From positions 1-46,055 of IMG/VR virus record IMGVR_UViG_3300008120_007163: DNA of 46,055 bases. The stretch is one strand, 5' to 3'. The notes beneath the pieces were generated by a model. It was not told the DNA's origin. It ran no database searches and was given only the letters and a program-made list of their open reading frames with translations. The stretch comes from a virus. The position numbers and the translations under genes were made by a program. Below are positions 7,260 through 46,055 of the stretch, piece by piece (position 1 is the first letter of the stretch; each line of letters opens with the position of its first letter).

Positions 7260-7421
7260 ATGAAACCTAAAAAAGTCAGCCCGAAAGATATTTTCGACTG
7301 GGAAGATTTAGATGCGGTATCGGCAATAACCAACATAAAAGATAAGATATCGCAAAAAATAAATAGAATTGAAAAACAGTTTTCTAAAAAAAAGAAACCT
7401 AAAAACAAGTTAGATGCGTAA
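7260..7421 (+). CDS. small basic protein, 53 aa
   Basis: This short frame starts with an ATG one base after the previous stop and overlaps the queE start by eight bases, so it fits the operon perfectly. The product begins MKPKKVSPKDIFDWEDLDAV and ends in a run of lysines (KKKKPKNK). No family was recognised. Tight packing is the main support for it being real. Confidence 0.55.
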   Translation: MKPKKVSPKDIFDWEDLDAVSAITNIKDKISQKINRIEKQFSKKKKPKNKLDA

Positions 7422-8202
7422 CAAATCAATAGAAGATTTCGACAAGACGCTACCAATTGTAGAGGTATACACTGCTGTACAGGGTGAAGGCTCAAGAGCA
7501 GGTATGCCGACAATTGTGATACGTACAACAGGTTGCACACATCGATGTTGGTTCGGTGAACAAGGTGGTTGGTGCGATTCTTGGTATACATCGATTCATC
7601 CTGAAAAGGGTAAATACACTATCAATGATATTATCAAAATATATGATGCAAATCCTCATATTTCAGAAATGATGCTGACAGGAGGCGCACCGACAATGCA
7701 TCCTGCAATTGTAAATACACTAAATAACTTTTGTCATGAACGTGGCATTGTAATGACAATTGAAACAGAGGGTTCTCATCGGATAGATTTCACAGACAAG
7801 CCTATTGGTTTAGTTTCAATATCACCTAAATTCAGCAATTCAGTACCTAAATTAGGTATTAAAACTCCTCAGGGTGCAACGGTAGACCAGAAGATGATCG
7901 ACCAGCATAATAAATTCAGATTGAATTTCGATGCGATTAAATACAACATGGAAACGCATACAGATTATCATTTGAAGCCTGTTGTGAATCCGATTCAAGA
8001 TCCTGAAATTTGGTCTGAAGTTCAAACGTTTTTAGACGAGTTAGGCGCACCTAAATCGAAAACTTATATTATGCCTCCTGGCGACAACAGAGCGGCACTG
8101 TTTTTAAGTTATGGTGATGTTATGAATTTTTGTAGAGACACTGGTTATAATTTTACAGGCAGACCTCACATAATTGCCTTTGACACTGAAAGATGCGTAT
8201 AA
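7414..8202 (+). CDS. queE: 7-carboxy-7-deazaguanine synthase QueE (radical SAM)
   Basis: QueE rearranges 6-carboxy-tetrahydropterin to 7-carboxy-7-deazaguanine, a step towards preQ0. The substrate-binding start VQGEGSRAGMPTIVIR is clear (22-37). The radical-SAM cysteines are C41, C45 and C54; the spacing CX3CX8C is wider than the usual CX3CX2C because of the insert WFGEQGGW. The next motif reads LTGGAP at 89-93 where most QueE proteins have GGEP. At 262 residues it is slightly long. It shares a cluster with folE, queC and dpdA, which points to DNA modification rather than tRNA queuosine. Confidence 0.88.
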   Translation: MRNKSIEDFDKTLPIVEVYTAVQGEGSRAGMPTIVIRTTGCTHRCWFGEQGGWCDSWYTSIHPEKGKYTINDIIKIYDANPHISEMMLTGGAPTMHPAIVNTLNNFCHERGIVMTIETEGSHRIDFTDKPIGLVSISPKFSNSVPKLGIKTPQGATVDQKMIDQHNKFRLNFDAIKYNMETHTDYHLKPVVNPIQDPEIWSEVQTFLDELGAPKSKTYIMPPGDNRAALFLSYGDVMNFCRDTGYNFTGRPHIIAFDTERCV

Positions 8203-36755: not shown

Positions 36756-37181
36756 ATGAGTACACGACTATTATTAGGGGATACACACCCCTTTGACATT
36801 TTGTTCAAAGACCTATTTAAAGACACTGAAAACTTTGTACCAGCGTATGCTACGAAACCACCTCATCCGTTAGATATCTACGAGACAAAGGATGGACTGG
36901 TATTCGAAGTGGCATGCACCGGTATTGAAAAAGACGCAGTTCGCATCAGCACTGAAGATCGTGATGTTATAAAAATCACGTATGAAAAACCGAAAGAAGT
37001 CGACAATACCGAAATCAATTATATCCACAAAGGTATTGCGAAGCGCTCATTTAATTTAGCGTATAAGGTTGCATCAAAATACGATTTAGAGGGTTCTACA
37101 GCTAAAATGGAAAATGGTTTATTGACAATCACGATTCCGTATGCTGAGGCATCTAAGCCAAGAACTCTGAAAATCGACTAA
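36756..37181 (+). CDS. Hsp20-type small heat-shock protein
   Basis: Small heat-shock proteins hold unfolding proteins in solution; T4-like phages sometimes carry one. The alpha-crystallin domain runs from about residue 40 (PLDIYETKDGLVFEVACTG) to the C-terminal GLLTITIPYAE, and the chain ends KPRTLKID. The N-terminal arm is short (FDILFKDLFKDTENF). At 141 residues it is a typical size. Imperfect inverted repeats lie on both sides, suggesting the gene arrived as a cassette or is controlled by the repeats. Confidence 0.85.
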   Translation: MSTRLLLGDTHPFDILFKDLFKDTENFVPAYATKPPHPLDIYETKDGLVFEVACTGIEKDAVRISTEDRDVIKITYEKPKEVDNTEINYIHKGIAKRSFNLAYKVASKYDLEGSTAKMENGLLTITIPYAEASKPRTLKID

Positions 37182-37246: not shown

Positions 37247-37720
37247 ATGAAAAGAATACTTTACACATGTATAACGATAGTCTTGCTATCGATTTCGGTA
37301 CCGACGAGTACTGATACCAGCGCATCATCTTCGGTTGCGCTTTATTATTATCGTTTTCTTGAATCGAAACAGTCGGAAATCGATCTGTTGTCACGTTTAA
37401 TCAATTCCGAATCCGGTACTGAAACATTCCACGATAAACTTATGGTAGGCAGTGTTGTACTGAATCGTATGCGTAAACGTTCAATCGACATGCAGTCGGT
37501 CATATTCGAACCGAATCAGTTCTCAGGAGTACATGATGACGGTTTCACACGTACTGCGGAAAGTGACAGGGCAGCAATGATGCTAATTATCAGTGGACCA
37601 ATCGATACCTCAGCGATCTATTTTCTCAATCCTGATGTCTCTACGAATCGTTCTTGGGTACGTAAAGTAATGCGAAGAGAACTGGTTGTAGAAAATAAAA
37701 ATCATTTTTTCTATAAATAA
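37247..37720 (+). CDS. secreted SleB/CwlJ-type cell-wall hydrolase
   Basis: A signal peptide is visible at about 1-26 (MKRILYTCITIVLLSIS, then small polar residues). The hydrolase domain follows: LLSRLINSESGTE with E55 as probable catalytic glutamate, VGSVVLNRM near 67-75, and FEPNQFSGV near 87-95. This pattern belongs to the SleB-type peptidoglycan hydrolases. Exported by the host secretion system, it could act as an endolysin that needs no holin. A promoter lies just beyond its stop. Confidence 0.78.
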   Translation: MKRILYTCITIVLLSISVPTSTDTSASSSVALYYYRFLESKQSEIDLLSRLINSESGTETFHDKLMVGSVVLNRMRKRSIDMQSVIFEPNQFSGVHDDGFTRTAESDRAAMMLIISGPIDTSAIYFLNPDVSTNRSWVRKVMRRELVVENKNHFFYK

Positions 37721-37756: not shown

Positions 37757-38794
37757 ATGATACGACACATAGGTTACGCATGCGTTAATACGCAACTCCA
37801 AGCAAAAAAAGTAAAGATGTCAACTGCAAGAAAATCGACAATCGATGCAGGCGGCGAAGAGGTAATTACCGATCTCATACTTTCAAATTTAGACTCGTTA
37901 TATAAGATACTCGAGTGGAATCACAAGAAGAAAATCAAATTCTTCAGAATGGGATCCGAACTGTTTCCTTGGTTAGGTACATACGATATTCGTAAGTTCA
38001 AACGATTCGACGAAATCGAATACAATGCAGGATTTGTAGGCGAGTACGCCCGTGAGAAACGCATGCGACTGACATTTCATCCTGGTCCTTTTAATGTACT
38101 ATGTTCGCCTAATGAGGAGGTTGTAGAAAAGACTATCAAAGAACTTGACGCTCACAGTGAGATATTCGATCTCATGGGATTTGCGCCGAGTTTCGACAAC
38201 AAAATAAATATACATGTCGGTGGTGCATACGATGACAAAGAAGCGACACTCAAGAGATGGGTTCAGAATTGGCGCCGACTCAAAGATAGCACAAGACAAC
38301 GGGTAGTTGTTGAGAATGACGACAAGTCTTCGATGTTCGCAGTTACGGATCTGATGCAACTGCACAAAATGTGCAACAAAGAATTGCCGATAACTTTCGA
38401 TTTTTTTCACCATAAATTTCACACTGGTGGTATGACCGAAAATGAAGCGTTAGATGCTGCTGTATCAACATGGCCGAAGGGTGTTGTACCTGCAACACAT
38501 TACAGTGAATCAAGGCGTGAAGAAAAGGTCAAAATTATCACTGACATATTTCGTAACAATCGTATACCTTGGGAAGACTTAGAAAAATGGCCTACATTCA
38601 AAGAAGCGTACGATTTTTACAGTCACATCAAATACCAAGCACATTCCGATTATGTCGACGGTCCGATCGATTCACACGGTCACACTATCGATGTCATGAT
38701 CGAAGCGAAGATGAAAGAGCAAGCCGTGTTCGGGTTACGCGATGCAGATACAGTACGAAAGTTACGTGCAGAAACACCATTATTAAATGGATAA
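37757..38794 (+). CDS. uvsE: UV damage endonuclease, UVDE family
   Basis: UVDE nicks DNA 5' of UV photoproducts using a TIM barrel and metal ions. The N-terminus MIRHIGYACVNTQL is the usual first strand. Metal-ligand residues are visible in FHPGPFNVL, NIHVGGAYDD, VVENDDKSS, TFDFFHHKFH, PATHYSESR and SHGHTIDVMIEAK. At 345 residues it is full length. It is the second UV repair enzyme in the window besides DenV. Promoter P5 is so close that the mRNA may lack a leader. Confidence 0.88.
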   Translation: MIRHIGYACVNTQLQAKKVKMSTARKSTIDAGGEEVITDLILSNLDSLYKILEWNHKKKIKFFRMGSELFPWLGTYDIRKFKRFDEIEYNAGFVGEYAREKRMRLTFHPGPFNVLCSPNEEVVEKTIKELDAHSEIFDLMGFAPSFDNKINIHVGGAYDDKEATLKRWVQNWRRLKDSTRQRVVVENDDKSSMFAVTDLMQLHKMCNKELPITFDFFHHKFHTGGMTENEALDAAVSTWPKGVVPATHYSESRREEKVKIITDIFRNNRIPWEDLEKWPTFKEAYDFYSHIKYQAHSDYVDGPIDSHGHTIDVMIEAKMKEQAVFGLRDADTVRKLRAETPLLNG

Positions 38795-43156: not shown

Positions 43157-43864
43157 ATGAAACTTTTAGACATTCTTAGAGGCACAGACAGTAAACTGAA
43201 TGAAGGTGTATACGATCCTTCAATATTTAAAGCGTTCTTTTTAGCAGGAGGACCAGGTTCAGGAAAATCGTTTGTATCAGGCAAAGTGACTGGCGGTCAC
43301 GGACTTCGATTCATAAATAGCGATACATTTTTTGAGAAACTGCTACGCGATGCAGGCTTATCAATGGACTTGGAATATTTGAAACACGAAGTTCCTGATG
43401 ATTATGAAAAGGCGATGCGACATCGTGAAGACGCGAAACAGTCGATGTATCGTACTGAAGCGAATTTCTTAGAGGGTCGACTCGGCGTTATATATGACGG
43501 CACTGGTGACGACTACGAGAAGATAAAAGGTTTGCGTGAGAAGTGTGAAAATATGGGATATGACACCTATATGATTTTTGTCAATACATCACTCGATATT
43601 GCATTAGGTCGTAATGCTGCAAGGGAAAGATCGGTTGCGGTAGATATTGTGACTGATAGTTGGCAAAAAGTTCAGAATAATATGGGCAAGTTTCAAAACC
43701 TGTTCGGTAAATCGAATTTCATAATTGTCGATAACAACGTATTCAATGAAAATCTTCTAAGTAAGGTTTGGAAACAGATTATGGGCATGGTACGCACACC
43801 GGTAAAAAATCCGATCGCCAAAGACTGGATACGTACACAATTACAGATGCGAAAACGCAATTAA
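43157..43864 (+). CDS. P-loop kinase, zeta-toxin-like
   Basis: The Walker A loop GGPGSGKS is at 31-38. It is followed by GLRFINSDTFFEKLL near 49-63 and VIYDGTGDD near 111-119, typical of zeta-toxin/polynucleotide-kinase-like proteins, and the arginine-bearing NAARERS near 153-159. It would phosphorylate a nucleotide, sugar-nucleotide or nucleic-acid end; the substrate cannot be told. At 235 residues it is complete. Confidence 0.72.
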   Translation: MKLLDILRGTDSKLNEGVYDPSIFKAFFLAGGPGSGKSFVSGKVTGGHGLRFINSDTFFEKLLRDAGLSMDLEYLKHEVPDDYEKAMRHREDAKQSMYRTEANFLEGRLGVIYDGTGDDYEKIKGLREKCENMGYDTYMIFVNTSLDIALGRNAARERSVAVDIVTDSWQKVQNNMGKFQNLFGKSNFIIVDNNVFNENLLSKVWKQIMGMVRTPVKNPIAKDWIRTQLQMRKRN

Positions 43865-44094: not shown

Positions 44095-45366
44095 ATGTAC
44101 AATAATATTAAATTAGTGAAGATATGGACAATGGTCACAGGTATAATGCTTGTGGCCTTTTTTGTTCTATTCACATTACAGGTATTAGAATTTCATCCGA
44201 ATACATTATCAAATCTTCGACTGATTTACATGCTGTATATTGCAATTGTTATACCGTTAGCTATGTCAATATATAATATTGTGAAGGCATATAATATTCA
44301 GGATGCCTATCAAAAACTGAAACTTAAAGCAGTAGAAAAAAGTAATGTGACTGCAATTTTCGACACAGATGGGAAAATACTTTCAGTAAATCAAAATTTC
44401 TCTGATATTTTAGGCTACAAGTCTGATGTGCTGAAACAGATGTGCCATATAGACCTATTGCCCAAACAATACGCCATATCCGATGAATACCGTATATTAT
44501 GGGATACGATGATTAAAGGTGAAACTGTATCTGGTGATTTTTTGCGAATAGGATCTGACGGTAAAGAATTCTGGTTTAATGGTTATTATACCCCAGTTCG
44601 CAATGCGATTGGGATTTACGAAACGATCGTGTTTATTGCATCTGACCAAACTGCATTAAAAAATGGTGAGATAGAGATTGAACAAAAAAATGCGTACCTA
44701 AGACATGCAGCACGTATATTACGACACGACATGCACTCGGGTATAAATATTTACATGCCCCGTGGCGTAAAAGCGTTGCGAAGAAAATTAACACGTGATG
44801 ACATTGATAGACTGAAGATCGACGGTCCAATGAAAATGATTGAAGCAGGACTTCAACACACACAAAAAGTTTACGAGGGTGTTAAAGAATTCACCAATTT
44901 AATTAAAGACGATTCAGGGTTAGAAACTGAATACTACGATTTAGCGAAAATACTGAAAGCGTTCTTAAAAGGTACATCATATCAAAAAGAAGTAGTGATC
45001 GATAAACTATGTGTCGTAAAAGTAAATGATGCGCTGTTTTGCACTGCAATCGATAATATTATACGCAACGGCTTAACATACAATGATAGTGCTACGAAAT
45101 TTGTCAAGATATATATGAAAAGTGATGTTTTGTGTATAGAGGATAACGGCCGTGGAATGACACCGGAAGAGTTTGTATACTTGTCTAAACCGTACATGCG
45201 CAGGGAAAATCAAAAAGAAACTGGCACCGGTTTAGGTTTGAGTATTTGTGTGAGCATTCTTAAGGAGCATGGATTTACAATCGATTCAGAACGTATCGAA
45301 ACCGGTACTGTTGTGAAAATAAAACTGAAAGGTATTAAAGATGATAGAATCGCTACTATTAGTTGA
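44095..45366 (+). CDS. membrane-bound PAS-domain sensor histidine kinase
   Basis: Two hydrophobic segments lie at about 11-32 and 42-64, so the sensor part sits in the host inner membrane with only a short loop outside. A PAS domain follows (about 80-185: AIFDTDGKILSVNQNFSDIL). The dimerisation helix has ILRHDMHSG with phosphoacceptor H211. The ATP-binding domain shows the N box (AIDNIIRNGLTYN, near 318-330), G1 box DNGRG (350-354) and G2 box GTGLGLS (377-383). All catalytic boxes are intact. It overlaps the response regulator by 26 bases, indicating coupled expression. Confidence 0.9.
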   Translation: MYNNIKLVKIWTMVTGIMLVAFFVLFTLQVLEFHPNTLSNLRLIYMLYIAIVIPLAMSIYNIVKAYNIQDAYQKLKLKAVEKSNVTAIFDTDGKILSVNQNFSDILGYKSDVLKQMCHIDLLPKQYAISDEYRILWDTMIKGETVSGDFLRIGSDGKEFWFNGYYTPVRNAIGIYETIVFIASDQTALKNGEIEIEQKNAYLRHAARILRHDMHSGINIYMPRGVKALRRKLTRDDIDRLKIDGPMKMIEAGLQHTQKVYEGVKEFTNLIKDDSGLETEYYDLAKILKAFLKGTSYQKEVVIDKLCVVKVNDALFCTAIDNIIRNGLTYNDSATKFVKIYMKSDVLCIEDNGRGMTPEEFVYLSKPYMRRENQKETGTGLGLSICVSILKEHGFTIDSERIETGTVVKIKLKGIKDDRIATIS

Positions 45367-45778
45367 TGACGAAGATCTGTTTCACTTAGTTTTCGAAGAC
45401 GCCTGTAGTATTTTAGATATAACACTTACATTAGAGGCATTGAATTCAGCCGATGAAGCATCGAATCGATTTAAAAACTGGTTTGAAACTGGAGACAAAA
45501 AATCACGGCCTGAATGTGTTTTTGTCGATCTGAACATGATAGGATCGACGTTTGACGGTATCGAATTGGTGAATAAAATAAACAATAGTTACGGTAATGG
45601 TGTAGTGATTGGAATTATATCGTCCTCTTCAGATAACATGGAAATCGAAAAGGCGAAAGCAGCAGGCGCCCAATTTTGGATTGTGAAATCTGACGATATC
45701 GAACCAAGACTTGAACGATTTCGAAAAGACTATGCAGGATATCGAAACCGTACACAAGCGTTTACAATATACGAATAA
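45341..45778 (+). CDS. stand-alone response regulator (receiver domain only)
   Basis: The 145-residue protein is one receiver domain: acidic pair D9/D10 in LLVDDED, phosphoacceptor D63 in VFVDLNM, conserved serines in GIISSSSD near 91-98, and K116 in FWIVKSD. No DNA-binding or enzymatic output domain follows, so it would act by protein contact or as a phosphate sink, like CheY or Spo0F. It overlaps the kinase gene by 26 bases and is two bases from the next gene. Confidence 0.9.
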   Translation: MIESLLLVDDEDLFHLVFEDACSILDITLTLEALNSADEASNRFKNWFETGDKKSRPECVFVDLNMIGSTFDGIELVNKINNSYGNGVVIGIISSSSDNMEIEKAKAAGAQFWIVKSDDIEPRLERFRKDYAGYRNRTQAFTIYE

Positions 45779-45780
45779 AC

Positions 45781-46055
45781 ATGTACATCAAGAAAAAAGG
45801 TTCTGAAACACGCAGTGTATTACTGCAACTTGCAAACGAGAGACGCGTATATATTGAAGGCCCTATACTCAAGGTTTTAGAAGCCGAAGAAGGCGATATC
45901 GAATTCGCCGAGTATTTAAACAACTGCATTGAGCGCGATTTGACTGCAAGACGCAAACGTTTGCAAGTAACAAAACAAGTACAAAAACAGAATACCGAAC
46001 TGGCGACTGCTTCTGAAGAAAAAGCGAAATTGTTAGCCGATTTAGAGATAGCACT
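45781..46055 (+). CDS. coiled-coil protein downstream of the response regulator (cut by window edge)
   Basis: ATG 45781 opens a frame to the window end: MYIKKKGSETRSVLLQLANE, then IEGPILKVLEAEEGDIEFAE, then a long basic-acidic helix (RLQVTKQVQKQNTELATASE) typical of a coiled coil. It starts two bases after the response regulator stop, so it belongs to the same operon. It may be an accessory or second signalling protein; the remainder must be seen to decide. Confidence 0.7.
   Translation, partial: MYIKKKGSETRSVLLQLANERRVYIEGPILKVLEAEEGDIEFAEYLNNCIERDLTARRKRLQVTKQVQKQNTELATASEEKAKLLADLEIA

Follow-up and report, generated by a model that had tools for sequence, protein, structure and literature searches.

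The stretch of viral DNA analysed here in full—46,055 nucleotides of the IMG/VR record IMGVR_UViG_3300008120_007163, hereafter the window—ends on its plus strand with three closely packed genes. The first encodes a histidine kinase (HK) of 423 residues (44095..45366), composed of two transmembrane (TM) helices followed by PAS, DHp and HATPase domains according to Pfam (PAS_4, HATPase_c), AF2 and Foldseek. The second, a receiver-only response regulator (RR) of 145 residues (45341..45778), was recognised from Pfam Response_reg and viral homologues and overlaps the HK gene by 26 nucleotides, 4 nucleotides being the commonest overlap in the relatives (148/193). The third gene starts at position 45781, two nucleotides past the RR stop, and is cut by the window edge (45781..46055), so that the 91 codons inside the window cover an N-terminal domain and the start of the coil of a putative membrane effector, as judged from alignment, TM prediction and AF2 models of relatives.

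The remaining part of the window consists of phage genes, i.e. those for a family B DNA polymerase, ribonucleotide reductase, DnaB-like helicase, exonuclease, clamp loader and endolysin, the nearest cultured DNA polymerase being that of Microcystis phage Mel-JY01 (38% identity). The endolysin candidate, a Hydrolase_2 protein (37247..37720, plus strand; PHROG endolysin E 8.6e-15, Pfam Hydrolase_2 E 3.1e-13), is located 6.4 kb upstream of the HK gene and is thus not adjacent to it, the 3' side of the three genes lying beyond the window. Additional window genes encode a QueE-like radical SAM protein (7414-8199; phrog_2076, E 3e-47), hinting that the phage may possess 7-deazaguanine chemistry, a UvdE-type UV endonuclease and an Hsp20 protein (37757-38794 and 36756-37178, respectively), as well as, upstream of the HK gene, a P-loop kinase resembling zeta toxin (AAA_33, Zeta_toxin; 43157-43864). 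Copies of the last one, 45-49% identical, occur in two other viral contigs, both without the three genes described above.

Concerning the sensor kinase, its Pfam matches are HATPase_c (E 3.9e-13) and PAS_4 (E 1.7e-9), no match to HisKA being obtained in Pfam for the window protein. The N-terminal TM hairpin is predicted by hydropathy at residues 13-31 and 41-59 (44131..44271; AF2 helices 2-30 and 38-83), the PAS sensor domain, delimited by Pfam and by a profile search against the PDB, spans residues 85-189 (44347..44661), and the phospho-acceptor histidine H211, embedded in the motif LRHDMHSGIN (codon 44725..44727), is kept in 96/96 distinct homologues covering that position. The N box (N321/N325), G1 box (D350-G354) and G2 box (G377-G381) are likewise present, and the box residues are invariant across 101 distinct aligned homologues, barring gapped fragments and a single G377E. 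The AF2 model comprises the TM hairpin, PAS, DHp and catalytic (CA) domains and finds LOV/PAS histidine kinases as its top Foldseek matches (E 5e-18). Pfam, residues and fold thus agree on a sensor histidine kinase with a DHp histidine and N, G1 and G2 boxes, in line with the preliminary description of this DNA, where a phage-encoded membrane kinase with four intact boxes had been proposed.

With regard to the signal, the profile of the PAS domain retrieved from the PDB the structures 3ewk, a 'Sensor protein' (E 4.9e-28; E 5.5e-6 with the single sequence), and 8dik, an aerotaxis receptor (E 4.4e-16); the two belong to MmoS and Aer, respectively, whose PAS domains are of the flavin type. By this profile search, the window PAS belongs by sequence similarity to the Aer/MmoS type, and since these are its closest domains by sequence, redox or respiratory state would be the likeliest signal, this being offered as a reasonable guess only. 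The kinase core is nearly constant among the relatives and the N-terminal sensor part varies: two TM helices are combined with a different PAS domain in the kinases of contigs L112, L123 and L129, or fused straight to the kinase core without any PAS in L116, L125, L135, L141 and L149; TM helices are absent from the kinase of L083 and the first kinase of L060, and the kinase of L082 contains three PAS domains. Judged from these sequences, the sensor is modular with an exchangeable PAS domain. In one phage, represented by contig L060 (7002-9990), two kinases of the HK family lie immediately downstream of a GH19 endolysin. One is soluble and has a PAS domain, the other lacks PAS and has a signal-like N-terminus, and a predicted secreted protein of 202 residues is encoded between them.

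The RR matches Pfam Response_reg (E 1.2e-8) with no output domain, and its residues D9, D10, D63 (codon 45527..45529), S94 and K116 (codon 45686..45688) do not vary among 84 distinct homologues, one of them gapped. It therefore contains the acidic pair, phospho-acceptor aspartate, serine/threonine and lysine that characterise a receiver; its PDB match to the solved two-component regulator 3ilh is a weak one (E 8e-6). The earlier reading of an overlapping receiver-only regulator with intact D63 and K116 and without a DNA-binding domain is thereby confirmed. Because the catalytic residues are invariant, HK and RR look like an active pair that would be capable of autophosphorylation and phosphotransfer.

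The visible part of the third gene is 37-68% identical to full-length relatives, the complete phage representatives of which have 180-218 residues in the alignment. They share a layout of a small N-domain, a long helix or coil of variable length and a C-terminal two-TM hairpin, with the motif EGNxxK in the N-domain, a basic stretch RRKRLxVTKQVQxQN and an almost invariant second TM helix; the motif WSNxFGILLTNxFSIxGTIMGVK is near-invariant. Two TM helices are predicted in 45/46 relatives scanned, the sole exception being the bacterial protein of contig L082. In the AF2 model, obtained for a single chain (mean pLDDT 84, pTM 0.36), a helix of residues 38-158 is followed by a four-residue turn and the TM2 helix (163-195). 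The preliminary description of a downstream coiled-coil gene thus holds for the visible part and is incomplete, since the full-length relatives end in the hairpin. An attempt to extend the gene beyond the edge by an exact 21-mer yielded no contig.

No family match for the third protein was found in Pfam or PHROGs, holin and antiholin families included, and Foldseek returned no PDB match below E 0.001, its one viral match being an uncharacterised protein of an uncultured Caudovirales, 48% identical. In descriptive terms, the protein would suit a holin or antiholin: such proteins are small and phage-encoded, have between one and three TM helices and belong to lysis modules, and the third protein, with its two predicted TM helices, is small and has lysis genes as neighbours in most groups. 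As modelled, it is a membrane effector without a named family, holin and antiholin both being possible roles of the hairpin. Two further predicted membrane proteins were observed around this gene. In at least six RR groups (L022:10435-10932; L014:7040-7540), RR and the third gene are separated by the gene for a multi-TM protein of 166-167 residues with no clear family, and in at least eight the third gene is followed by one for a short protein in which a TM segment is predicted (family f15; L068:6143-6457).

The RR search retrieved 364 IMG/VR viral contigs, the best 80 of them at 70-77% identity over the whole protein, and the searches with the third protein and HK retrieved at least 518 and at least 553 viral contigs, respectively. 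Used as separate queries, the three proteins all recover the same three-gene unit. Among 194 HK loci examined, which were drawn from overlapping searches and are not all from different contigs, all three genes are present in 191, the contig end intervenes in the remaining three, and exceptions do not occur. HK, RR and the third gene therefore form a closed, obligate unit, and chance is ruled out since the unit is conserved in hundreds of contigs. Median dN/dS is lowest for RR (0.073), followed by the third gene (0.087) and HK (0.116). It is considered very probable that an active HK-RR pair is combined here with an obligate third gene. One HK was also seen on a viral contig of 297 kb (L269), and the unit therefore reaches jumbo-phage genomes.

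In cultured phages, no unit was found among 50,697 records with two RRs and one third protein as queries, and the HK matches there are low-identity and partial, covering kinase or PAS only. Within 84,980 bacterial and archaeal species, close RR relatives are confined to two contigs, L082 and L083, and the latter is viral as it carries a terminase. Since the unit runs up to the window edge and its third gene is truncated there, one might suspect that this end of the contig was acquired from a host or was misassembled. This explanation is rejected as almost certainly wrong: the G+C content is even over the whole window with no shift at the HK-RR end, the same gene order recurs in hundreds of viral contigs, and the unit is nearly absent from bacterial genomes. 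Both checks proposed at the outset—the search for the three-gene order in related phages and the inspection of this contig end for host DNA—gave an answer in favour of the phage, the related contigs also carrying hallmark genes near the unit (e.g. gp25, baseplate wedge or terminase).

The same distribution bears on the possible target of the RR. Stand-alone receivers often work in phosphorelays, and together with the weak resemblance to 3ilh this might suggest that the RR acts on a kinase, phosphatase or phosphotransfer protein of the host, the third protein being merely a membrane anchor. Such a target is nevertheless highly unlikely, given that the RR never occurs without its own HK and third gene on contigs long enough and that only the two contigs mentioned above, one of them viral, represent its close relatives in cellular genomes. 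The hijack of a host phosphorelay, raised in the preliminary description, is unsupported for the same reasons, i.e. the conservation of HK, RR and the third protein as a closed set and its near-absence from bacterial genomes.

The non-viral relative, L082, reads as a Bacteroidetes chromosome (a MAG) and contains a chromosomal version of the unit (L082:5709-9087) consisting of the triple-PAS kinase, an RR 67% identical to the phage RRs and a third-protein fusion, in which the N-domain and coil are joined to a HisKA-HATPase kinase that replaces the hairpin. A unit of this type is absent from the other 394 genomes of the class searched. Because L082 links the N-domain and coil to a kinase, these parts look like an input module listening to the RR, and the hairpin like the output used by phages. 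This fusion, albeit a single example, is the best available evidence that the RR probably acts on the third protein. The earlier proposal that the regulator acts through the product of the next gene is accordingly regarded as probable, the three genes always being found together.

Many contigs place the unit next to genes of host lysis, such as Phage_holin_4_1 proteins (above the cut-off) and endolysins of the PG_binding+Amidase_2 and GH19 types, accompanied by DUF5675 proteins, phrog_3000 and Rz-like (spanin-like) proteins. phrog_3000, recurring near the unit (L049:15816-16370; L060:5570-6163), is a candidate lysis protein because of its relatedness to the endolysin family phrog_33083. Of 22 large records containing a member of one of three lysis families, 17 have it within 4 kb of RR, in comparison with a mean of 4.0 and a maximum of 12 under random placement (0 of 20,000 trials reaching 17), this being a crude null model applied to related contigs that are not independent. 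With one record per group, the values are 11/15 observed versus 2.6 expected, and a lysis protein of the reference set occurs within 4.5 kb in 28 of the 50 RR groups with enough flank. The preliminary description, right about the kinase-regulator pair and probably about its partner, had missed both this usual lysis-module setting and the membrane nature of the third protein. Since the unit sits in the lysis modules of most phage groups, the hairpin most likely acts on a holin, and this gene context makes a step in lysis control moderately likely.

Three T4-like groups (L002, L005 and L021) have no recognised lysis gene close to the unit, which lies there between baseplate genes and a directly upstream gene that, from its appearance by eye, is presumably gp55-like. 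That neighbour might suggest a tuning of late transcription, in which the membrane protein or the receiver would sequester the late sigma factor; this is very improbable, however, the gp55 assignment having no support in PHROGs and most groups having no such neighbour. A rather unlikely alternative, although less so than the preceding one, is a response to, or exclusion of, superinfection: HK would detect another infecting phage, or the disturbance that such a phage causes in the membrane, and the envelope would be altered by the third protein so that DNA entry is blocked, with the lysis genes adjoining the unit only because all of them are late accessory membrane genes. A small membrane protein without a holin family match would suit such a role, as would the distance of the unit from recognised lysis genes in four T4-like or large records, whereas the finding that no other recognised neighbours are as common as lysis genes, in phages that otherwise differ, argues against it. 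Lysis inhibition after superinfection would join this idea with that of lysis timing.

The lysis-timing reading, favoured here with moderate confidence, is that of a phage-owned two-component pathway, the RR of which acts on the membrane effector to time or block lysis. By means of its TM hairpin and exchangeable PAS domain, the membrane-bound HK would sense some condition of the infected cell. The invariant catalytic residues suggest that it would then autophosphorylate on H211 and hand the phosphate to D63 of the RR. The obligate unit, the 4-nt overlaps and the kinase fusion of L082 point to the N-domain of the third protein as the site on which the RR may act. In terms of the predicted structure, the signal could travel along the long helix to the two-TM hairpin and change its packing in the membrane; the hairpin would finally trigger, delay or block the action of the holin, so that the state of the host would set the time of lysis. 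Doubt arises because the third protein matches neither a holin or antiholin family nor a PDB fold, because the T4-like units have no recognised lysis gene close by and the recognised endolysin of the window is 6.4 kb away, and also because no RR was seen in phages related to that of the window by DNA polymerase. It should be pointed out that in these relatives, several at 41-76% identity and most of them short fragments, neither RR nor the third gene was found, and that the one contig with a DNA polymerase identical to that of the window stops, by its coordinates, before the HK-RR region.

Among known systems, the orthodox PAS-kinase two-component systems of the YF1/FixL type share the TM-PAS-DHp-HATPase arrangement with all boxes, as well as the two aspartates, serine and lysine of the receiver, and Foldseek groups the phage HK with the LOV/PAS-FixL kinases. 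The phage unit differs in being encoded by a virus, in the lack of an output domain in its RR and in the invariable presence of a third, membrane protein that belongs to no known family. Staphylococci and streptococci have LytSR (LytST)-LrgAB, which resembles the unit in outline, small membrane proteins of the holin/antiholin type being controlled by a two-component system. LytR is a DNA-binding regulator, whereas the phage RR consists of the receiver only and does not qualify as one, and the effector is a different protein. In Streptococcus mutans, lrgAB is reported to be affected by oxygen and glucose (PMC3507848).

In T4 lysis inhibition, the phage senses its surroundings and delays lysis via membrane proteins (PMC11413866, PMC8385771); unlike in the phage unit, the antiholin RI, one of two along with RIII, binds the holin T directly, without kinase, receiver or phosphate. 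The vibriophage VP882 also times its lysis by a host-state sensor, under quorum-sensing control (PMC7790227), but it employs a VqmA-type receptor-transcription factor with an anti-repressor and not phosphotransfer. LytSR-LrgAB, T4 lysis inhibition and VP882 are, by analogy, the closest functional parallels, and the unit is assigned to none of them. In pelagiphages, histidine kinases occur next to curli genes (PMC9599517); that kinase is phage-encoded too, but it is located upstream of a type VIII secretion cluster, and the accessible part of the source mentions neither a receiver nor a membrane effector. No published description of the unit was found in the literature covered, which was partial and exclusive of bioRxiv preprints. 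The kinase and regulator families are thus known, and the novelty is the obligate, phage-specific three-gene pathway, the unnamed family of membrane effectors and the strong link to lysis genes.

The usual accounts of lysis timing invoke either a holin clock that is fixed or an antiholin that senses directly. Based on the above results, it may tentatively be proposed that a widespread class of phages times lysis post-translationally, by host physiology, via a modular redox/energy sensor kinase, a stand-alone receiver and a new membrane effector family triggering or restraining the holin. The absence of the unit from cultured phage records and the lack of a family name for its effector make this a concrete, testable system. 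If the proposal is true, a complete phosphotransfer pathway in lysis modules of hundreds of uncultured phages would imply that many viruses take decisions on the basis of measurements of their host, and the modular sensors would reveal the signals to which phages listen.
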